Shown here one piece after another: positions 1 to 56,554 of a stretch of DNA of 64,000 nucleotides (position 1 is the first letter of the stretch; each line of letters starts with the position of its first letter). Source of the DNA: a virus; the IMG/VR virus record IMGVR_UViG_3300028840_003967, positions 1-64,000 of that record; one strand, written 5' to 3'. A program made the position numbers and the translations under genes. Below the pieces are notes generated by a model. It searched no databases, had not been told where the DNA came from, and saw only the letters and a list, made by a program, of their open reading frames with translations.

Positions 1-659
1 CGTTGGTTTGAAAACACCTTGTCTTTTTCGGAAAAGATTCCACTCTCCAATATCACCTTTATCGCATCTGGATGGCCGTCAGCGGGTTGGATGAAAACTT
101 CTCTCACAAAGACTTCTTCTTTCAGGATTTCCTCGACTTCCCTCATGTCCTGTTCCGTGCCGACAACGAACTTGAAATAGCAATTCGTCATATAACGGAC
201 CAATGTAGGAAGCGCACTGCGCCTACCGGAGCTAGAGAGTTTCGGAGAAATGATCCATGCGTCAATGCAAACGAAATGTTTCGGATCGCACTTGTCCAGA
301 AGTTCCCCGTTCGTTTCGATTGAAGTCCCGAACGCCGGTTCGATCTCTTTGCAGATTTGAACAATCTGTGGAAGGAAGATAGTAGGCTCACCGCCAGTGA
401 AAACAACATGGCGCTTGTGAAGAGGAAAAGACTTCAAAACAGAAATAACATACTCGACAGATAACGAAAGGTGTTTTGTTTCCGCCTGACTCGGTTTGAT
501 ATTTTCCGGTTTGTAGCCGCTATCGCACCAACTACATGTTCGATTGCATCCAAGAGTCCTCAGAAAAACAGAAGGAAGGCCAACTGTTGGACCTTCCCCG
601 GAAATCGTCTCATAAATTTCATGTACACCAATTTCTTTAGGAGTTCCTTGCCTCCGCAT
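1..659 (-). CDS. queE: 7-carboxy-7-deazaguanine synthase QueE (3' end cut off by the window)
   Basis: Radical-SAM enzyme that converts carboxytetrahydropterin to 7-carboxy-7-deazaguanine, the ring-contraction step of preQ0 synthesis. The frame opens at an ATG at 659 and stays open to base 1, so about 219 residues are visible and the C-terminus is missing. The SAM iron-sulfur motif is CX3CX2C (C38, C42, C45; GCNRTCSWCDSGY), preceded by a GEGPTVG turn typical of QueE. A GGEP motif follows near residue 85. The start overlaps the end of queD by 23 bases, which suggests translational coupling. Family assignment is firm. The lost C-terminus prevents a check of full length. Confidence 0.93.
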   Translation of the reverse strand, partial: MRRQGTPKEIGVHEIYETISGEGPTVGLPSVFLRTLGCNRTCSWCDSGYKPENIKPSQAETKHLSLSVEYVISVLKSFPLHKRHVVFTGGEPTIFLPQIVQICKEIEPAFGTSIETNGELLDKCDPKHFVCIDAWIISPKLSSSGRRSALPTLVRYMTNCYFKFVVGTEQDMREVEEILKEEVFVREVFIQPADGHPDAIKVILESGIFSEKDKVFSNQ

Positions 660-1053
660 AAGATGTATTCGTTTCCCAAACGCGAAGGGAGTCCAGTCTT
701 GCGGATTCATGCTCGAAACACTCCTTCATCTCCGCGAACCAATGAAGCGCCAACACTTCAACCGTAGGGTCTTGATGGATTATGAACACGTGTTCCCTGA
801 AGCCGCCCTCAATGAGAACGCCCGCGAGAGGATCGTCTATTTTGAGAACGACTTTATGATCCCATCTCTCCACGACGTGTTTCAACTTTTTGAGTTCCGC
901 GAAGTCCACCACAAATCCGTTGTCGCCTATGTTGCCGTAGGCCGTCAACTCCACGCGGTAGTTGTGCCCGTGCAAGAAACGACACTTCCCTTCGTGCCGC
1001 ATCAACCTATGGGCGATAGAGAACTCGCCCAAAAATTTCGTTACCTTGACCAT
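637..1053 (-). CDS. queD: 6-carboxy-5,6,7,8-tetrahydropterin synthase QueD
   Basis: Zinc enzyme of the PTPS/QueD family, making 6-carboxytetrahydropterin from dihydroneopterin triphosphate, the FolE product. The 138 residues match the family's usual length. Zinc ligands H15, H28 and H30 (HGHNY motif) and the catalytic Cys24 just before the HGH are all present, as is a downstream WDHK motif with the second catalytic His. The start ATG has GAGGTAA upstream. It lies between a small zinc-knuckle gene and queE in one leftward operon. Nothing looks degraded. Confidence 0.95.
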   Translation of the reverse strand: MVKVTKFLGEFSIAHRLMRHEGKCRFLHGHNYRVELTAYGNIGDNGFVVDFAELKKLKHVVERWDHKVVLKIDDPLAGVLIEGGFREHVFIIHQDPTVEVLALHWFAEMKECFEHESARLDSLRVWETNTSYAEARNS

Positions 1054-1057
1054 TAGT

Positions 1058-1255
1058 TTACCTCATTCCTAGGCTACCTCTTCCTTTGTCCTTGCACGCA
1101 TTCCGACCGAGTTTTTGTTCGATCCACACTTGCGCCATGGGCCGATCTTCTTTCTTCAACGTCTTGAAATCCTCAAAGCACTCATTACACACGGCATGTC
1201 CCGCGATTGTCCTATGAGGATTCCCTTCGTTTTCCCGGCAGGCGCAACATCTCAT
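1058..1255 (-). CDS. Small zinc-knuckle protein, unknown function
   Basis: A 65-residue protein with CxxC near the N-terminus (CCACREN) and a second CNEC about 17 residues later, the spacing of a treble-clef or zinc-ribbon knuckle. The remainder is basic. Its start has AAGGAG eight bases upstream. It is embedded in the deazaguanine operon, but nothing in the sequence ties it to that chemistry. Similar tiny Cys-pair proteins recur in this phage (7397-7798, 8871-9203). Function unknown; a nucleic-acid- or protein-binding role is an inference. Confidence 0.7.
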   Translation of the reverse strand: MRCCACRENEGNPHRTIAGHAVCNECFEDFKTLKKEDRPMAQVWIEQKLGRNACKDKGRGSLGMR

Positions 1256-1258
1256 ACC

Positions 1259-1669
1259 CTACTCTCCTTTGTCTTCTTCGGATTTTTCACCTTCATCTTC
1301 CTTGGGCGCTTCTTCAGGGGATACGACAGTCTTCGGAGGAGCGTCAAAGACGTACTCGACAGTCTTGTTCTTTACGGCTTCGGTGAAATTCCGAAACATG
1401 TTCACGCAATCGACACGGTTCTCGTAGCCTTGCCCGCCTTGCGAGCCGGTGCCGAAGAGATAATTCCCGTTGGCACTGTACACGCTTACCTCGTGTTTGG
1501 CTTTCTTTCCCTTTCCCTGCCTGCTGAACACGACTTGATGAGTCATCTTTCCTGAAATCGCCATTGATTCGCTCCTTTCTTTCTCTTCAATCTTACTTCT
1601 CCAAAAAGCAAAAAACGACAATGCTCCCACAAGAGCTATGATCGTGAGCGCATACATTAGGTCTACCAT
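1259..1669 (-). CDS. Small membrane-anchored acidic-tailed protein, unknown function
   Basis: Begins at the ATG at 1669 (GAGAG just upstream) with one strong membrane segment at residues 4-22 (ALTIIALVGALSFFAFW). A soluble domain follows with a YSANGNYLFG segment and a paired aromatic/Gly pattern, then an acidic Glu/Lys-rich tail. A second in-frame ATG at 1564 has a better ribosome site (AAAGGAG, seven bases away) and would give a soluble 101-residue form, so dual starts are possible. The frame also stays open upstream through the tRNA-like fragment at 1727-1766, but that extension reads tRNA sequence and is probably not translated. Function unknown. Confidence 0.62.
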   Translation of the reverse strand: MVDLMYALTIIALVGALSFFAFWRSKIEEKERSESMAISGKMTHQVVFSRQGKGKKAKHEVSVYSANGNYLFGTGSQGGQGYENRVDCVNMFRNFTEAVKNKTVEYVFDAPPKTVVSPEEAPKEDEGEKSEEDKGE

Positions 1670-1726
1670 GTGATCTCTCATGGTTTTACTCGCTCGTGAT
1701 TCGAAGTTCTCCAAAACAGCGCGTCG

Positions 1727-1766
1727 TGGCTCCCCCGCCTGGATTCGAACCAGGAATCGCGGATTA
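1727..1766 (-). other. 3' half of a tRNA gene (Asn/Gln type), candidate attachment core or tRNA relic
   Basis: On the minus strand a perfect T-arm is visible: five-base stems CCTGG/CCAGG around TTCGAAT. It is followed by a seven-base acceptor strand CGGGGGA, discriminator G and an encoded CCA. Upstream, TAATCCGC matches the 3' side of an anticodon loop and stem. No complementary 5' acceptor (TCCCCCG), D-arm or 5' anticodon stem exists in the preceding 150 bases, so this is not an intact tRNA. An A72/G73 pair is typical of tRNA-Asn and tRNA-Gln. Such 3' halves are what phage attP cores copy from host tRNA genes. No integrase is in the window, so this is a suggestion. Confidence 0.6.
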
Positions 1767-1879
1767 CGCAGAAAGACGGAGCCTCCCAACAGTAACGGCA
1801 CGATGACAAACAGCACAGAGCAACACGCACTTCTCAGCTTCTTTCCGCAGTCGTTCATATGATTCATTACACCCAGCAA

Positions 1880-1972
1880 TTACAAATAGCTTTCGTATGC
1901 CTTTTCGATGATGAAAGTCAAAGCCTTCTCGCCCATCTCGCGTCGGCGTTTTGTCTTCGTCCCTTTCTGCAT
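1880..1972 (-). CDS. 30-residue basic small protein
   Basis: A short frame (MQKGTKTKRRREMGEKALTF...) of 30 residues, basic at the N-terminus and helical at the C-terminus. AAGGAG sits seven bases before the ATG, one of the clearest ribosome sites in this stretch. It fills the gap between folE and the downstream membrane protein. There is no recognisable family; the call rests on the ribosome site and position. Confidence 0.55.
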   Translation of the reverse strand: MQKGTKTKRRREMGEKALTFIIEKAYESYL

Positions 1973-2016
1973 TTTCAATCTCCTTCGCCGTCGTGATACC
2001 ATTTCACCACAGGGAA

Positions 2017-2583
2017 TCATTTTATGTGCTCCAGGATTTCATCCTTGACTTGCAAACCCGCTTGCCCGAGCACGACGCAGACTTTGGTCGCCGCATGGAT
2101 GTCACCAGTTCCCGTGCATACACACGCATGGTGGGCCTTGGAGAGAACGCAAACGGCTTCAGGTTTGAGCCTTTCTTCAAGCTCTGCGGCGATTCTATGC
2201 GTGAACTCTTCTTGAAGAGTTCCGACCTTCGAGAAGAATTCAACCAACTGTGGAAGTTTCGAGAATCCGACGATGTGTTTTCCTGGTAAATAACCGATTC
2301 CGACTGTCCCATAGAACGGCACGAAGTGATGTTGGCAGATCGATACGAAACAGATGTCTCGCATGACAACGATGTCGTTCCCTCTTGATTTGAACAACTT
2401 GAAGTCGAAAGGTAATCGGTGAGGATAGCGATCATTGATCTTGTCCTTGTTCGCTGTCATCTGTTCAAGCATCTTGACGACACGCCGGGGAGTCTCCAGC
2501 GTTTCGTTCTTCAGCTTTATGCCTAGATGGTGGCACATCCGGGCATAGGCTTTTTCAGCCGATTTACGCTTTCTGGCGTTCAC
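2017..2583 (-). CDS. folE: GTP cyclohydrolase I (FolE)
   Basis: Converts GTP to 7,8-dihydroneopterin triphosphate, the first step toward preQ0 (shared with folate synthesis). At 188 residues it matches bacterial FolE. The zinc-binding CQHH motif sits in SICQHHFVPFYG, and the second metal Cys lies in the HHACVCTGT region. The central substrate-pocket segment (GYLPGKHIVGFSKLPQLVEFF) is also typical. The start is GTG with GGAGGAG upstream, overlapping the end of queC by 20 bases. A phage-borne folE next to queD/queE/queC supplies the pathway without depleting host folate precursors (inference). Confidence 0.96.
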   Translation of the reverse strand: MNARKRKSAEKAYARMCHHLGIKLKNETLETPRRVVKMLEQMTANKDKINDRYPHRLPFDFKLFKSRGNDIVVMRDICFVSICQHHFVPFYGTVGIGYLPGKHIVGFSKLPQLVEFFSKVGTLQEEFTHRIAAELEERLKPEAVCVLSKAHHACVCTGTGDIHAATKVCVVLGQAGLQVKDEILEHIK

Positions 2584-3265
2584 AGAACTCCTCCCAACCC
2601 TTCTTTCGGAGTAAGCAAGCTGGACATTTTCCGCATCCGTGTCCCCAACTGTGTTTGCCTAACCCTGTGTTATAGCAAGTCGCTGTTTCAGTCAAGATGG
2701 TTTCCAGAACGCCCAACTCATCCGCTGCTTCAAAGATGCGCGCCTTCGTCATGTTTATTAACGGCGTGAACAGGCGCACAGTGTTCTTAGGCAATCCCAA
2801 GGCGAAGTTGATAGCGTCTTCACACGCAGCAACAAACTCATAACGGCAATCAGGATAGCCGCTGGAATCCGCTTGGCACACGCCGCTGTAGATGTGCTCT
2901 ATCCCCCGGCTGACGGCCACTCCGGCAGCGATAGAGAAGAACACCATGTTCCGGCCAGGAACAAACGACGTGGGCAATCCCTTGAACCTCTTGCTTTCCT
3001 CGATCTTCTCAAAACTGTACCCTGTCAGAGCGGAATCGAGGAGTGCTCCGTAGTTCTTCAAATCAACGGTGTCGTGCTTGCGGACTTCGAAGATTTTCCC
3101 TATCCGCTTTGCTTGGAGCAGTTCCATCTCATGCCGCTGGCCGTAACAAAAAGACAGAGCATCCACGAACGGATACTTGAAGTTCCGTTTCATCAGCGCA
3201 AGACAGGTTGCCGAATCCTGTCCGCCGGAAAGAAGAATCAGTGCGCCTTTTTGTCCTGATTCCAT
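2564..3265 (-). CDS. queC: 7-cyano-7-deazaguanine synthase QueC
   Basis: ATP-dependent amidation and dehydration of 7-carboxy-7-deazaguanine to preQ0. The PP-loop SGGQDS is at residues 13-18. A conserved FVPGRN segment, the DSSGYPDCR substrate loop and a C-terminal four-cysteine zinc site (CYN...CGKCPAC) complete a canonical QueC. The start chosen is the ATG at 3265 (AGAAGGT about ten bases upstream). The frame is open further upstream, but that part overlaps the neighbouring gene and lacks family features. It overlaps the upstream QueC-like gene by 28 bases, implying coupled translation of the two paralogues. Confidence 0.95.
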   Translation of the reverse strand: MESGQKGALILLSGGQDSATCLALMKRNFKYPFVDALSFCYGQRHEMELLQAKRIGKIFEVRKHDTVDLKNYGALLDSALTGYSFEKIEESKRFKGLPTSFVPGRNMVFFSIAAGVAVSRGIEHIYSGVCQADSSGYPDCRYEFVAACEDAINFALGLPKNTVRLFTPLINMTKARIFEAADELGVLETILTETATCYNTGLGKHSWGHGCGKCPACLLRKKGWEEFCERQKA

Positions 3266-3936
3266 TTCTTGTACACCTTCTGTGCAGAGGTTATCGCGGA
3301 AGCCCGAACCAAACATGCGAGGCACACTTCGCAACCTTTTGGATCGTAGTTGCAGGAATTCGTTTTTTCAAGATCGATGCCGAGACTAAGCGCGAGCAAA
3401 GCAACTTGATGCTTCTGGAATCCGCATTCAAGAAACGGCGCTCGTATCTCGGTGATTTCGTCTTTCGTGAAGCCGCCGACTTCCTGAAGTTCCCGATACG
3501 TGTCAAGGAAAGCGGAAGTGCGATCCGAATGCGGTTCCTCCTCTTCGTGATGGAAACCCACGAACAGGTCCATCTCTTCTATGCTGGCCAAACAAGCGCC
3601 CTGTGTGATGAGGAAAGTGTTCCTTCCGTTGATGTAGTCCTTGGCAATGGAACTGCGTCCAGGTTCTATCTTCTCGCCAAAGCGGAAAATCGGCCCGCCT
3701 TTGACTTCATCTTTCATCGGTATGTCAGCCCTGTGCCTCACCAAGAATCCTCTCCCGAGAACTCCTTGATGATACTCGACGTACTCTATGGACTTTTCTG
3801 TTGTCACTTGCCCGAAGTCAACGACCAAGTTGATGATCCGTTCTTCAGGGTTCACTCCGTACACAAAGGGGTTCTTTGCGATGGCATAGAACAGCGCGGT
3901 AGAATCTAGTCCTCCAGAAGCCAGGATCACGGGCAT
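3238..3936 (-). CDS. Second QueC-family PP-loop ATPase (divergent paralogue)
   Basis: A 232-residue PP-loop protein starting at the ATG at 3936 (AAGGAG seven bases upstream). SGGLDST is at residues 7-13, an INGRNTF block replaces QueC's PGRN, and a C-terminal zinc cluster (CNYDPKGCEVCLAC) has QueC-like spacing. The region between is clearly different from the adjacent queC: HHEEEEPHSDRTSAFLDTY replaces the usual GYPDCR loop. Retained ATP and zinc sites imply a working adenylating amidotransferase-type enzyme on a related deazapurine, but the substrate is unknown. It may act beyond preQ0 or on another carboxylate. A degenerate duplicate is less likely given intact motifs. Confidence 0.85.
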   Translation of the reverse strand: MPVILASGGLDSTALFYAIAKNPFVYGVNPEERIINLVVDFGQVTTEKSIEYVEYHQGVLGRGFLVRHRADIPMKDEVKGGPIFRFGEKIEPGRSSIAKDYINGRNTFLITQGACLASIEEMDLFVGFHHEEEEPHSDRTSAFLDTYRELQEVGGFTKDEITEIRAPFLECGFQKHQVALLALSLGIDLEKTNSCNYDPKGCEVCLACLVRASAITSAQKVYKKWNQDKKAH

Positions 3937-4325
3937 TTTCTTTCTCCTTCCGCTGTGCAACGTATCCTCACACCGCCGCGAGAGTTGAACGTGGTACTCA
4001 CACTCACAGTCAAAGGATCGATGGCTTTCAAGAAGTCATCTCGAATCCTTGCTGTGATGCTTTCCTGAAACGCCTTGAAGTTCCTGTAGCTCCCCAAGTA
4101 CAGCTTCAGCGACTTCGATTCACAGATGCTTTCGAAAGGCGTGTACTGTATGTCGATTGCCCCGAAGTCCGGTTGTCCCGTCACCGGACAGAGAGACGTG
4201 AACTCTTCGAAAGAAATGCAGATACTCGGCGTTGGATGCTTCACTTGGAAAGGAACGCCTACGAGCAAGGATGGCGAATATTCTTCTGGAAACGGAACCA
4301 CTTTGCCGAGCGGGATGTCTTCCAT
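3927..4325 (-). CDS. queF: NADPH-dependent preQ0 reductase QueF (type I)
   Basis: Reduces the nitrile of preQ0 to the aminomethyl of preQ1. The 132 residues match type-I (YkvM-like) QueF. The catalytic Cys46 is in SLCPVTGQPDFG with the general acid Asp53, and the family ESKSLKLYL signature is at residues 69-77. The ATG at 4325 is chosen; a GTG at 4340 in frame is an alternative. It is the first gene of the deazaguanine operon after a hairpin at 4361-4404. Its presence implies that this phage makes preQ1, not only preQ0; whether preQ1 ends up in DNA or tRNA cannot be read from the window. Confidence 0.94.
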   Translation of the reverse strand: MEDIPLGKVVPFPEEYSPSLLVGVPFQVKHPTPSICISFEEFTSLCPVTGQPDFGAIDIQYTPFESICESKSLKLYLGSYRNFKAFQESITARIRDDFLKAIDPLTVSVSTTFNSRGGVRIRCTAEGERKCP

Positions 4326-4350: not shown

Positions 4351-4404
4351 AAAAGAAAAAGGCGAGTATTTCTAGCGTCCGCAAACGCTAACGGTTGACT
4401 CGCC
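4351..4404 (-). terminator. Hairpin with T-run upstream of queF (intrinsic terminator or attenuator)
   Basis: On the minus strand GGCGAGT pairs with ACTCGCC around an inner AGCGT/ACGCT stem, followed directly by TTTTTCTTTT. It separates the small basic gene at 4424-4579 from queF, so read-through would be needed to express the deazaguanine operon from the promoter at 4631-4659. I looked for preQ1-riboswitch features and did not see a convincing class I or II aptamer. Confidence 0.7.
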
Positions 4405-4423: not shown

Positions 4424-4579
4424 TTACGGTCGCGGGGGACGCCTTCGCTTGCCAGCCTGCACGCCCAGGCGCTGTCTGCCACGGCCTGCCGCTGCACCCC
4501 CACGGCGACGGCCTGCACGAACGCCTCGACGCCCTTTGCGGCCTGCCGCTGCTGTTCCCCCCTTTCCTCCCCCTGGCAT
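4424..4579 (-). CDS. Small Gly/Arg-rich basic protein
   Basis: A 51-residue protein made almost entirely of Gly, Arg, Ala and Lys (MPGGGKGGTAAAGRKGRR...), resembling RGG-type nucleic-acid-binding tails. AGGAGG lies six bases before the ATG. The DNA is noticeably GC-rich compared with its neighbours. It is the first gene after a candidate promoter and is followed by the terminator before queF. Function unknown. Confidence 0.6.
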   Translation of the reverse strand: MPGGGKGGTAAAGRKGRRGVRAGRRRGGAAAGRGRQRLGVQAGKRRRPPRP

Positions 4580-49388: not shown

Positions 49389-49595
49389 CTACTTAGCCCT
49401 CTTGCGTCCAGCGGCAGCCATCTTGGCCATCTTCTTTGCGCCGAACTTTTTCCGGCCTATGACAGCGGCCAAAGCCTTTGGGTCTTCAATCCCGTCTTCC
49501 TGTCTTCCCAAGGATCGTTGAAGCCGTTGAAAACGTTTCCCGGTTCCCAACTTGGGCAGCTTCTTTTTCTGTCCACGTCCGCCACGCTGTGCCAT
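49389..49595 (-). CDS. Small basic virion-operon protein
   Basis: 68 residues, Lys/Arg-rich (GQKKKLPKLGTGKRFQRLQR and AGRKRAK at the end) with a KFGAKKMAKMAA segment. Its start overlaps the TerL stop (TAATG). Small basic proteins beside terminase often bind DNA or protein during packaging. No family recognised. Confidence 0.62.
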   Translation of the reverse strand: MAQRGGRGQKKKLPKLGTGKRFQRLQRSLGRQEDGIEDPKALAAVIGRKKFGAKKMAKMAAAGRKRAK

Positions 49596-52375
49596 TACGC
49601 TATTACCCCCGCTCCTACCATGAAGTTCTGTTGAACTTCGATTTCGCCCGTGTCTGCCGGTTCCTGCGCGCCGTAGGCGGCAAGCATGAGAGAAACAGGG
49701 TAGTCGTCATGCGCTCCCGGTTCGTCTGGATGCTCGCACACCATGTAGTTGTTCTTGTACAACTTTCTCAAGTCCAACATCTCTCCCACGAAGCGCCTGA
49801 AGTGTCTTGACTTTCTCGCCTTCTCTCCGGCAGGGAAGGAGAGTCTACCCGACATGAGATCGGAATGCAATATCTTAAAACCATCCGACTTCGAAGCCGG
49901 GGTGAACTTCACTCCCTGCACTTCGACAAATCCCATTTCAGGCGTTCCATCCGCCCCCTTCCCGCGATCAAACTCGCTGTAGTACACGGTGAACTTGTCA
50001 AGTCCCCATTCCCCCACACCTGTTGCATCGAGAGTGATCTTCCTCAGTCCTTTGAAATTGGAGAGGAAGTTCACAATCTCGTGGAATTGGTGCTCGTAGT
50101 TGTCGCCGAGAAGCATGTGCCAAGCAACGACACGCTTGTTGTAGGCGATCCAATGGAAACTCCCTTCAGGCGTGTCAACCCATTCATCAGCGACGGGAGT
50201 TCTCCAATCCACGTCCATTACGGTAATCACACTTGGATCGTGGATTTTTCCGAAGTCAATCCCGGCGATCTGAGTTGTCACACGAGAAGATCGGTGCCAA
50301 ATCTCGTGATAGCCGCCGTGCGTCTTAGCGATTGCGGGCGTCATAAGCTGCTTGTCCGTGATGAACTGTCCACGCTCAAGCAACCATTCGCAGCAATAGC
50401 TAAGACGGAACTCATCGCTGTCTTCACCAAGGCGAACTTTTTCTTTCTTGATGTAGTCCCGATACATGGAGTTGTACTTTTGACAAACAAGATAGTCGTA
50501 TCGGTAGTGGTTCTTCGCTTCGCCTTGCGCGTACAAACGCTGATTGGACTTGATCGACGTGTAGAAATCAGACTTCTCCGTCGAACAAGTTCCGATCTTC
50601 ACAATGACGCCGTTGTACGCGGCAACCATGGGATGAAGGCTGTTACCTGTTACGATTCCATTAGCAATGACAAAATGCCGTTCATCTGGAACAGTCACGC
50701 AGTATGTGGGTTTCTTTCCGATATGTCTGACGGATTTAACACTAACAAACTGTATGTCTTCAGGATAAAACTGACTTCTACTCCGCCCTCTTTTTCCTTG
50801 AATAGTGCGGATACCCGCTTCAAGAGCGTCTTGTTTTGGCCCTAAGTTAAACTGCTTATGAAATTCACGCACATCTTCAACAGACTTTATATGCAGTCGG
50901 TACATATAGGTGCCTAGACGTTCTTTTATTCCCGGCAAATTCCCTGTGCTTTCCACGAAACCTTCGAACTTAGCACATTGAATGCCGAAGTGTAACAAAG
51001 TTTTCCGAAGGCCGTCTACAAGATACTCTGAACAGTTGGAAAATGAAACAACAGGTTTCACAGTCGGATTTTCTATACTGCCGTCAGCTATAATCAACCC
51101 GGAAGCAAGTCCGCGCAGAAATTCTAAGCTCCAAGGAAGATTGGGTATACGCTTGTTCTCACGCTTTGCCCCCCAAACGCCGATTTTTTTCAGCCATTCT
51201 GTCAACTTATTAGAGCCTTTCTTGTTTCCAGGCGAAGTAAGCCCACATTCAAGCATTCCACTAGATTGCTCGTTATAGACTACAGGACGCACGCCGAATT
51301 CATGCGGACATATACGGTCAAGTAGTTTCTTTACAGAAGGCTCAACAATTATTTGCGGCTTATCGCCAGTGAAACATCCGTCACCAAGAAGCAAGCCAAG
51401 CAAGAATCCTCGATCAAAGTTCCCTAAGACACCTGCTGCATTATTCAATCGTGTAGGAACAGCCATTTGCCAGCCGGGCTGGATTTCGTAAGTCAAGGCT
51501 TCGAAAGGAACCCTCCGAGTTCTGCTGCGCACAAAATGCCGGTGATTGGCCGTAACGTCTAAGTATCTTCCTCCTGCTAATGTCACACGATACACGGGTT
51601 GCACACCATTATCATGGTACTCAATATCACGAGACTCAAAAAAGCCAGAAGGAGTCAACACAGGCAGTTTCTTTTTGACAACTTCTTCCACAGGAACTTC
51701 GATTCCTCCAGAAGTAATGAAAAGCGTGCCTTCAGCAAAACACTTCCTCACCTTCAGCGTCCCGATGTCTTGCGCCTCATCAAGAATCAGGATGTGGTAC
51801 GTGTCGCCTTCGATGTGTGACTGTTCCGAAGCCGACTGAGAACGAATCCGGCTTCCATTCGAAAGACGAGTCTTGTTGGCGTTGCCGATGTCAAGGGCAA
51901 CGTTCAATTCGGCGGCTACTTCCTTCGTGGTGTCCGTTTCGAGCGTGTCACGAAGGCGACTGTAAACGATGTCAGCCTGTTCCTGTTTCGGCGCGTAGAT
52001 GCCGACAACGACACCGTACTTGTAGCCGCGATAGTTGCCTTGCTCGTCGGTACAGTTCAAGCGCCAATCGTCTTCGAAGATTTTCATTCTCGCAAGAAGC
52101 GGAAGAATCAAGCAGCACGCGGCGAGAATGTCCGCAATCAACTGAGACTTGCCGGACTGCCTAGCCCAAAGCGCGGTAAGCATGTCGCCGTCATGGAGAA
52201 GAACGGCTTCCACAAAACGATAGCCGAACTCCTTCTGATACTTGAAGTGCCTCTTCTGAGAAAGGATTTCGGCAAGACGGAGAATACGCAAAACAAGACT
52301 ATCCAACGGCACAGTCGGTTGACTGGTTTCCCGCGTGCAGACACGCGGTGCCATGGGTTCCATAAGACTGTTCAC
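49595..52375 (-). CDS. Terminase large subunit with an intein
   Basis: The precursor is 926 residues, about 559 after splicing. The start is taken as the GTG at 52375 because it overlaps the upstream stop as GTGA. Walker A is ARQSGKSQL, Walker B is ILILDEAQD, the coupling motif is VKIGTCSTEKSD and the RNase-H nuclease is GIDFGKIHDPSVITVMDVDW with later KITLDATGVGEWG and HDDYPVSLMLA. The intein sits between Walker B and the coupling motif. It translocates DNA into the capsid and cuts concatemers. No small terminase gene is recognised nearby. Confidence 0.95.
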   Translation of the reverse strand: MNSLMEPMAPRVCTRETSQPTVPLDSLVLRILRLAEILSQKRHFKYQKEFGYRFVEAVLLHDGDMLTALWARQSGKSQLIADILAACCLILPLLARMKIFEDDWRLNCTDEQGNYRGYKYGVVVGIYAPKQEQADIVYSRLRDTLETDTTKEVAAELNVALDIGNANKTRLSNGSRIRSQSASEQSHIEGDTYHILILDEAQDIGTLKVRKCFAEGTLFITSGGIEVPVEEVVKKKLPVLTPSGFFESRDIEYHDNGVQPVYRVTLAGGRYLDVTANHRHFVRSRTRRVPFEALTYEIQPGWQMAVPTRLNNAAGVLGNFDRGFLLGLLLGDGCFTGDKPQIIVEPSVKKLLDRICPHEFGVRPVVYNEQSSGMLECGLTSPGNKKGSNKLTEWLKKIGVWGAKRENKRIPNLPWSLEFLRGLASGLIIADGSIENPTVKPVVSFSNCSEYLVDGLRKTLLHFGIQCAKFEGFVESTGNLPGIKERLGTYMYRLHIKSVEDVREFHKQFNLGPKQDALEAGIRTIQGKRGRSRSQFYPEDIQFVSVKSVRHIGKKPTYCVTVPDERHFVIANGIVTGNSLHPMVAAYNGVIVKIGTCSTEKSDFYTSIKSNQRLYAQGEAKNHYRYDYLVCQKYNSMYRDYIKKEKVRLGEDSDEFRLSYCCEWLLERGQFITDKQLMTPAIAKTHGGYHEIWHRSSRVTTQIAGIDFGKIHDPSVITVMDVDWRTPVADEWVDTPEGSFHWIAYNKRVVAWHMLLGDNYEHQFHEIVNFLSNFKGLRKITLDATGVGEWGLDKFTVYYSEFDRGKGADGTPEMGFVEVQGVKFTPASKSDGFKILHSDLMSGRLSFPAGEKARKSRHFRRFVGEMLDLRKLYKNNYMVCEHPDEPGAHDDYPVSLMLAAYGAQEPADTGEIEVQQNFMVGAGVIA
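50642..51742 (-). mobile_element. Intein with LAGLIDADG homing endonuclease in terminase
   Basis: 367 residues. It begins with Cys in KVRK|CFAEGTLF (block A), has TANH in DVTANHRHFV (block B TxxH) and two LAGLIDADG-like helices (GFLLGLLLGDG and LASGLIIADGS). It ends in FVIANGIVTGN before Ser (block G). The penultimate residue is Gly, not the usual His, so splicing may be slow or need another catalytic residue. Insertion in the ATPase core is a classic highly conserved site. Confidence 0.93.
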
Positions 52376-55688: not shown

Positions 55689-56554
55689 GTGTTCATCCTC
55701 CCGCCAGGAGGGTAGTTGTTCCTAAACGGGGACGCGGGGAAGTTGACCATCGTCCCATTATTGCTGTTGACGGAGTTGTCCGTGATTGTCGGAGCGGTGT
55801 CTGTTTGGTCACAGCGCCACCAGCCGACAAGATTCGCGGATAGACTATGGAAAGTCGGATCGGACGGAGTTCCGGCATTATAGAGTTCGCGGACTTCTTC
55901 AGCCGTCAACTCAGCGTTCCAGATTGTCGCGCTCGTTGAGAATCCATCGAAGAATCTGCTAAATCCGTCACGGGAACTTATGGCAAGATTCGCCGCCGCT
56001 TCGACTATGGTGGCCGTCAAGTTGTCTCCCGTGATGTTGTTCCGCGTTAGTTCCTTGCCGTCCAAATACAGCTTCACACCTGAAGCCGCGCTGCTTCCGT
56101 CATAGGTCACGCACACATGATGCCACAGGCCGTTGTTGACTTCTCTGTAGCCTATGGGAAAATCCACTTCGATCCCGTTCAAGGTATCCGTACTCGTTAT
56201 GCCAACGACAAAATCGGGATTAGACGGACGGTAAACAAGCGACCAACCTCTCCTTGTTCCTCCGTCCAGCCGCTTGCTCAAAAGAGCGCCGACAGTGGAA
56301 AGTTCAAGAGTGCAAAACCAAATGCCGAAAGAAAACGAGTCCAGCCGGTCGAACTGAATCTCTGCCGGATTCCCGATGTCAATCCAGTCGTTGACTCCAT
56401 CGAATTCAAGAGTCTCTGTCAATGCCAGGGCGGAAGCAACAGGTATGCCCGCGATCAACTTTTCCTGGTCCGTAAGACCACCAGGAAGAGTATCCCCGAT
56501 AGGAAGTTCCTGCTTCTGTCCAGCAATGACAACAACCGGCCTTCGAACGGCCAT
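55685..56554 (-). CDS. LamG/concanavalin-A-like tail adhesin
   Basis: 289 residues. N-terminal MAVRRPVVVIAGQKQELPIGDTL closely resembles the start of the gene at 56565-57020, suggesting a common anchoring motif. From about residue 45, ETLEFDGVNDWIDIG, FSFGIWFCTLE, WHHVCVTYDGS, YLDGKELTRNN and LVGWWRCD follow the strand and Asp/Asn pattern of laminin-G lectin domains. It probably binds carbohydrate at the host surface, located on the tail fibre. Confidence 0.85.
   Translation of the reverse strand: MAVRRPVVVIAGQKQELPIGDTLPGGLTDQEKLIAGIPVASALALTETLEFDGVNDWIDIGNPAEIQFDRLDSFSFGIWFCTLELSTVGALLSKRLDGGTRRGWSLVYRPSNPDFVVGITSTDTLNGIEVDFPIGYREVNNGLWHHVCVTYDGSSAASGVKLYLDGKELTRNNITGDNLTATIVEAAANLAISSRDGFSRFFDGFSTSATIWNAELTAEEVRELYNAGTPSDPTFHSLSANLVGWWRCDQTDTAPTITDNSVNSNNGTMVNFPASPFRNNYPPGGRMNT

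Follow-up and report, generated by a model that had tools for sequence, protein, structure and literature searches.

A phage gene set probably serving a 7-deazaguanine modification of DNA that ends at preQ1

What is a phage that encodes its own route from GTP to preQ1 likely to do with the product? The question is raised by one end of a 64,000-base stretch of viral DNA (hereafter the window; positions 1–64,000 of the 75,833-base IMG/VR record IMGVR_UViG_3300028840_003967), where QueE, QueD, FolE, two QueC-family proteins and QueF are all encoded leftward within positions 3–4325. These six proteins had been recognized in a sequence-only reading of the window, and searches of Pfam, NCBIfam and PHROGs confirm them; family matches for every step support the predicted gene route from GTP to preQ0 and further to preQ1. 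We consider it probable that the route serves a phage-encoded 7-deazaguanine modification of DNA ending at preQ1. The genes, their family membership, the intact active-site motifs of QueF, of the canonical QueC (QueC1) and of a DNA transglycosylase, DpdA, and the linkage of all these in one virus are observed directly.

A predicted route from GTP to preQ1 and a transglycosylase at a distance

The earlier statement that the window holds no DpdA is right for the window, whose base 1 coincides with the contig end; no terminal repeat was found in the window's contig. The sequence to the left of base 1, where dpdA was to be sought, is provided by an overlapping IMG/VR contig, IMGVR_UViG_3300018080_000165 (76,077 bases), which turned up in the search with QueF and the second QueC-family protein (QueC2). 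The two contigs are 100% identical over 12,325 bases, operon included, and 99.95–100% identical across the remaining overlap up to window base 56,483 (about 56.5 kb in all, the alignment omitting one short stretch near 32.8 kb); judging from the sequence, they derive from the same virus. In the coordinates of its locus L006, the overlapping contig reaches 19,660 bases left of window base 1, and it encodes there a DpdA of 427 amino acids (L006 3159–4442, i.e., window −16,501 to −15,218, about 15–16.5 kb left of base 1).

Inspection of the open reading frames (ORFs) on that contig revealed this DpdA, and searches with PHROGs and tblastn confirmed the assignment. It matches phrog_887 (queuine tRNA-ribosyltransferase; 7.4e-41), the same PHROG that matches DpdA of phages 9g, Dp-1, MS1, R26L, Pan1, and BRock, whereas the Pfam models for TGT (PF01702) and DpdA (PF23859) give no match in either contig; the protein is therefore divergent. 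According to tblastn, it is most similar to a protein of Bacteroides phage BS162P1 (4e-33), and proteins annotated as transglycosylases in EC151, PaMx25, and BRock-type phages match it more weakly. In the alignment with DpdA of 9g and Dp-1, the segments DSGAF, VDSTTW, and KVHVFG correspond to the two catalytic Asp motifs and to the conserved DpdA histidine, absent from DpdA2; the DpdA proteins of BRock and GiJojo have lost the second Asp. Further members of the Dpd repertoire (DpdA3/4, DpdL, DpdM, and DpdN) are reportedly covered by a phage 7-deazaguanine study published in NAR in 2023.

In Streptomyces phages BRock and GiJojo, DpdA carries the C-terminal part of phrog_887 (about positions 354–486) as a fused domain; BS162P1, the gut phage MT835482, and this virus encode that part near dpdA as a Cys-rich protein of its own (zinc-domain protein at L006 446–1516, about 18.1–19.2 kb left of window base 1). 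The fusion in BRock and GiJojo suggests that this domain works with DpdA. A separate observation, made by reading the translation, concerns MT835482.1 (locus L037, 61850 onward), where the 747-aa DpdA frame carries an apparent intein-like insert, SDSSVGYD...GVVVHNTTW, at the catalytic Asp motif.

QueF, a 7-cyano-7-deazaguanine reductase (preQ1 synthase) by family and encoded at 3927–4325 on the minus strand, as are all six genes of the route, scores 116.5 bits with TIGR03139 (preQ1 synthase; cut-off 86.9 bits). Since this score falls between those of Dp-1 (167) and the halovirus HVTV-1 (64) in the same search, 2'-deoxy-preQ1 (dPreQ1) is the best prediction. In the alignment with QueF from B. 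subtilis (PDB:4f8b, 2e-21), the active-site Cys and Asp (LCPVTGQPDF) and the NADPH motif ESKSLKLYL are intact; the motif E-S-K-S-x-K-x-Y distinguishes QueF from QueF-like proteins. Identity with the QueF-like archaeosine synthase was rejected, as the QueF-like structure 5jyx yields an E-value of 0.0026 vs. 2e-21 for 4f8b.

The preceding step is covered by QueC1 (2564–3265), a canonical preQ0 synthase by family (Pfam QueC 1.5e-64; TIGR00364 202 bits, with a cut-off of 150 bits; PDB:3bl5 1.3e-47). A canonical QueC signature comprising SGGxDS, YxQxHxxE, VPxRN, YPDC, and zinc cysteines was described in 2026 (PMC13329287), and QueC1 carries all of it, as SGGQDS, YGQRHEME, VPGRN, YPDC, and the four-cysteine zinc site CYNT..CGKCPAC. 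QueD, a 6-carboxytetrahydropterin synthase (637–1053; Pfam PTPS 3.4e-30, TIGR03367 79 bits, PHROG QueD 2.2e-31), and QueE, a radical SAM 7-carboxy-7-deazaguanine synthase, are ordinary members of their families. The queE gene is open at the contig start (3–659, start at 659 or 710; Pfam, NCBIfam, and PHROGs matches); on the overlapping contig it is complete (L004 11616–12431, 271 amino acids, with the end RFVPQVHKFLGMA), the complete protein matches PHROG QueE at 3.8e-33, and its CxxxCxxC motif reads GCNRTCSWCDS. FolE, GTP cyclohydrolase I (2017–2583; Pfam 3.5e-39), aligned with seven phage FolE proteins, retains the Zn residues and LQE; in the same alignment CTGTGD stands in place of the conserved RG that follows HxC, and CEHH is changed to CQHH.

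From these genes we infer the chemistry, the order of reduction and insertion, the extent of modification, and its protective role. FolE, QueD, and QueE would convert GTP to 7-carboxy-7-deazaguanine (CDG), QueC1 would turn CDG into preQ0, and QueF with NADPH would reduce preQ0 to preQ1; DpdA would then swap guanine in the phage DNA for preQ1, or for preQ0 that is reduced later, and the 2'-deoxy-preQ1 formed in this way should hinder restriction enzymes of the host. Whether reduction precedes insertion has been left open (PMC6884629). The phage DNA is thus probably protected in much the same way as that of Streptococcus phage Dp-1.

The sequence-only reading had left the choice between DNA and tRNA as the target of a preQ1-type modification. 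Bacterial TGT normally uses preQ1 as a substrate, and a role in tRNA has been proposed for phages having preQ0 genes without DpdA (PMC6884629), so that preQ1 might feed the host queuosine pathway instead of the phage DNA. However, the virus has its own DpdA, whose catalytic motifs are intact, a profile scan finds no tRNA-type TGT in either contig, QueA, QueG, and QueH were not found, and Dp-1, having the same gene set, carries dPreQ1 in its DNA. The DNA part of the choice is thus better supported because DpdA has been found, while supply of the host tRNA pathway seems quite improbable.

Several points weigh against modification of DNA ending at preQ1. DpdA lies outside the operon, some 15 kb away. 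With about 95.5 kb seen and its ends not joined, the genome is incomplete, and therefore other finishing genes could be missing. BRock, BS162P1, and MT835482, the nearest structural relatives, have DpdA without QueF. The activity of FolE is less certain, as its conserved Arg-Gly is lost, and QueC2 may lead the pathway to another end product. As for the distance, this virus shows that the genes of such a pathway can lie at loci far apart, and therefore a lack of dpdA beside the que genes, or on an incomplete contig, says little.

Relation to known phage systems

The earlier reading held that known phage systems usually stop at preQ0 or use other finishing enzymes, and it cited a halovirus as the precedent for a preQ1-type modification of DNA. 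This needs correction, since systems with both QueF and DpdA are known, namely, dPreQ1 in Dp-1 (PMC6884629) and the gene sets of Dinoroseobacter phage vB_DshS_R26L and Pseudanabaena phage Pan1 (Nanhaivirus). The gene set of the Dp-1 type, FolE, QueD, QueE, QueC, QueF, and DpdA, is present in one virus here, on two overlapping contigs; hence the system belongs to an already known type, and the surprise is limited.

Dp-1 and this virus share FolE, QueD, QueE, QueC, a small one-module QueF, and a phrog_887 DpdA. Unlike Dp-1, where the order is queF-queC-queD-queE-folE-queT-dpdA, this virus has DpdA about 15 kb off, a second divergent QueC-family gene, a different gene order, and no QueT transporter that we could see. 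R26L and Pan1 resemble it in gene content (QueD, QueC, FolE, QueF, a DpdA-type transglycosylase, and QueE); each has one QueC, without the C-terminal cysteines, and their que genes are scattered among replication genes. HVTV-1 shares FolE, QueD, QueE, QueC, and QueF, its QueF being more distant (64 bits); no DpdA was recognized in it in the 2019 study (PMC6884629), and it has no phrog_887 match here. In virion DNA, dPreQ1 replaces about 1.7% of G in Dp-1 and about 30% in HVTV-1 (PMC6884629).

The second QueC-family protein

The sequence-only reading counted two QueC-family genes. Both proteins are indeed members of the family, but QueC2 (3238–3936; Pfam QueC 5.2e-22) is no second canonical QueC: it scores 51.2 bits with TIGR00364, far below the 150 bits required, and most of the signature is lost. 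SGGxDS is kept as SGGLDS, while YxQxHxxE has become FGQVTTEK, VPxRN has become INGRN, YPDC has become HSDR, and the zinc site has the form C(x)6CxxCxxC rather than C(x)8C. The changes hence remove Tyr and His from YxQxHxxE, the VP pair from VPxRN, and all but the Asp of YPDC; QueC from E. coli is inactive when the corresponding Tyr residues are changed to Ala (PMC13329287). Still present are the ATP loop (SGGxDS), GRN, four zinc cysteines, and that Asp, which corresponds to the residue that reads the Watson–Crick edge of 7-deazaguanine in Cap9 and has a counterpart in QueC (PMC13279940). The most likely role of QueC2 is an additional ATP-dependent reaction on a related 7-deazaguanine base.

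QueC2 matches the QueC part of 9g Gat-QueC and the QueC proteins of HVTV-1 and Achromobacter phage Motura best, at 29.8–31.6 bits. It is no recent copy of QueC1, because it scores 2.6 bits to QueC1 vs. 31.6 to 9g Gat-QueC. Phage tblastn with QueC2 gave distant QueC and Gat-QueC matches alone, and no useful close relatives were found by peptide patterns (IMG/VR and GTDB), by a DNA pattern of the zinc motif (IMG/VR), or by an alignment-based scan. AlphaFold2 single-sequence models were too poor for use (pLDDT of 34 for QueC2 and 40 for DpdA). A second, more divergent QueC-family gene is also seen in Vibrio phage 1.081.O, and a divergent QueC-like gene adjoins dpdA in BS162P1 and MT835482; thus, phages of this sort repeatedly have divergent genes of the QueC family.

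These features allow for a DNA modification that is real but has an end product other than dPreQ1: QueC2, with or without QueF, would make an amidated, archaeosine-like or other base, and the virion 7-deazaguanine would be different or mixed. The distance of QueC2 from QueC1 and its retained ATP loop, GRN, Asp, and cysteines are in favor of that, as is the weak clustering with Motura QueC in small trees, the latter gene adjoining those of an AsnB-type amidotransferase and a transglycosylase. The two proteins have GRN, VGFHxE, P..D....FLD, and APF in common; however, tree support is only 0.82–0.88, the sequences being short and divergent, and Motura QueC is the sole standalone QueC of its phage, is paired with the amidotransferase (QueC-AsnB-TGT), and keeps PFPD and YGQ. 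The Motura transglycosylase, unlike DpdA of this virus, has no phrog_887 match. Neither a glutamine amidotransferase nor ArcS was recognized among the proteins scanned, and QueF is intact, so that we regard another end product as possible but unlikely. There is a similarly small chance that QueC2 represents a novel enzyme type within the QueC family and acts beside canonical QueC and QueF, either yielding a virion 7-deazaguanine other than or additional to dPreQ1, or conjugating the base to another partner.

Alternatively, QueC2 might modify proteins, as Cap9 and QatC do, and have nothing to do with the DNA base: QueC-family proteins have been repurposed for N-terminal deazaguanylation (PMC13279940), and the CBASS QueC model gives QueC2 54.9 bits, slightly more than TIGR00364 does. 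However, the CBASS model does not discriminate, giving 70–100 bits for most ordinary phage QueC proteins; QueC2 lacks the extensions of QatC and has no QatC match; partner genes (CD-NTase; QatA, QatB, and QatD) were not recognized among the proteins scanned; and queC2 sits inside a base-synthesis operon. A protein-modifying role is thus very improbable, and modification of DNA ending at preQ1 remains the preferred interpretation.

Operon layout, genome setting and implications

The six genes had been described as one leftward set, which holds for the strand; still, the run is not gapless, as an interrupted tRNA gene and small ORFs lie between folE and queD. The reading frames from queF through queC2 and queC1 to folE overlap by 10–28 bases. 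They are followed 3' of folE by 452 bases holding the interrupted tRNA gene and small ORFs, a 101-aa ORF (1259–1564, minus strand; supported by coding score), a 65-aa Cys-rich zinc-finger-like ORF (1058–1255, minus strand; a weak zf-C3HC4 match, 0.0032, below the cut-off), queD, and queE; both ORFs have the Shine–Dalgarno sequence AAGGAG. Directly upstream of queF, reading of the sequence reveals a terminator-like hairpin, GGCGAGT..ACTCGCC, followed by TTTTTCTTTT (4351–4404, minus strand), which a simple hairpin scan with a loop limit of 8 did not pick up; no preQ1 riboswitch upstream of queF was matched in Rfam at E ≤ 5. Right before this hairpin ends a 51-aa ORF (4424–4579, minus strand), which is very basic, rich in Gly, Arg, and Ala, preceded by a strong Shine–Dalgarno sequence, and located in a GC-rich stretch.

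The interrupted tRNA gene (1724–2016, minus strand) begins directly 3' of the folE stop codon with its 5' half (2016 to about 1988; acceptor, D-arm, and start of the anticodon stem), and its 3' half (about 1780 to 1724; T-arm, acceptor, and CCA) lies about 200 nt further on; the 7-bp acceptor strands pair, and the insert of about 200 nt, near the anticodon, holds small ORFs. Both halves are tRNA-derived, since 23 bases of the 5' half recur without mismatch in tRNA-Trp genes on other viral contigs, and 25–28 bases of the 3' half do so in bacterial and phage tRNA-Asn genes. When introns are allowed, ARAGORN reports one match in 95 kb (score 103.5) vs. two matches in 20 shuffled genomes, with lower scores; this gene is the sole tRNA signal of the genome scanned. 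Joined forms give an Arg, Ala, Leu, or Pro anticodon depending on the joint, none of them restorable with confidence, and the insert has no match among Rfam introns, group I included. A tmRNA was considered and rejected, as ARAGORN finds none, a D-stem is present, and there is no Ala-type tag. In Candidatus Gottesmanbacteria (MFJL01000035.1; L038 6374–6401), a 3' half of a tRNA ending in the same way is preceded by an apparent group I intron end (GAGATAGTCC); ARAGORN finds no uninterrupted tRNA at that site.

The phage also encodes a PolA-type DNA polymerase, a UvsX-like recombinase, a DnaB-like helicase, a primase, a terminase, a portal protein, and a major head protein. The latter is 38–45% identical to those of BRock-group Streptomyces phages, Bacteroides phage BS162P1, and gut phage MT835482; by capsid, the nearest relatives of this uncultivated phage lineage are Streptomyces Borockvirus phages and BS162P1. 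The large terminase ORF (49595–52354, minus strand, 919 amino acids) contains an intein with a LAGLIDADG domain, and to the left of the window a MoxR-type AAA ATPase adjoins a VWA-domain protein (L006 8825–10519 and 10416–11654).

The system described here adds an uncultivated lineage to the few phages that encode a full GTP-to-preQ1 route together with their own DNA transglycosylase. QueC2 is the part worth an experiment, and, along with the separately encoded DpdA-associated zinc domain, it offers a concrete target in the hunt for new bases or DpdA partners.

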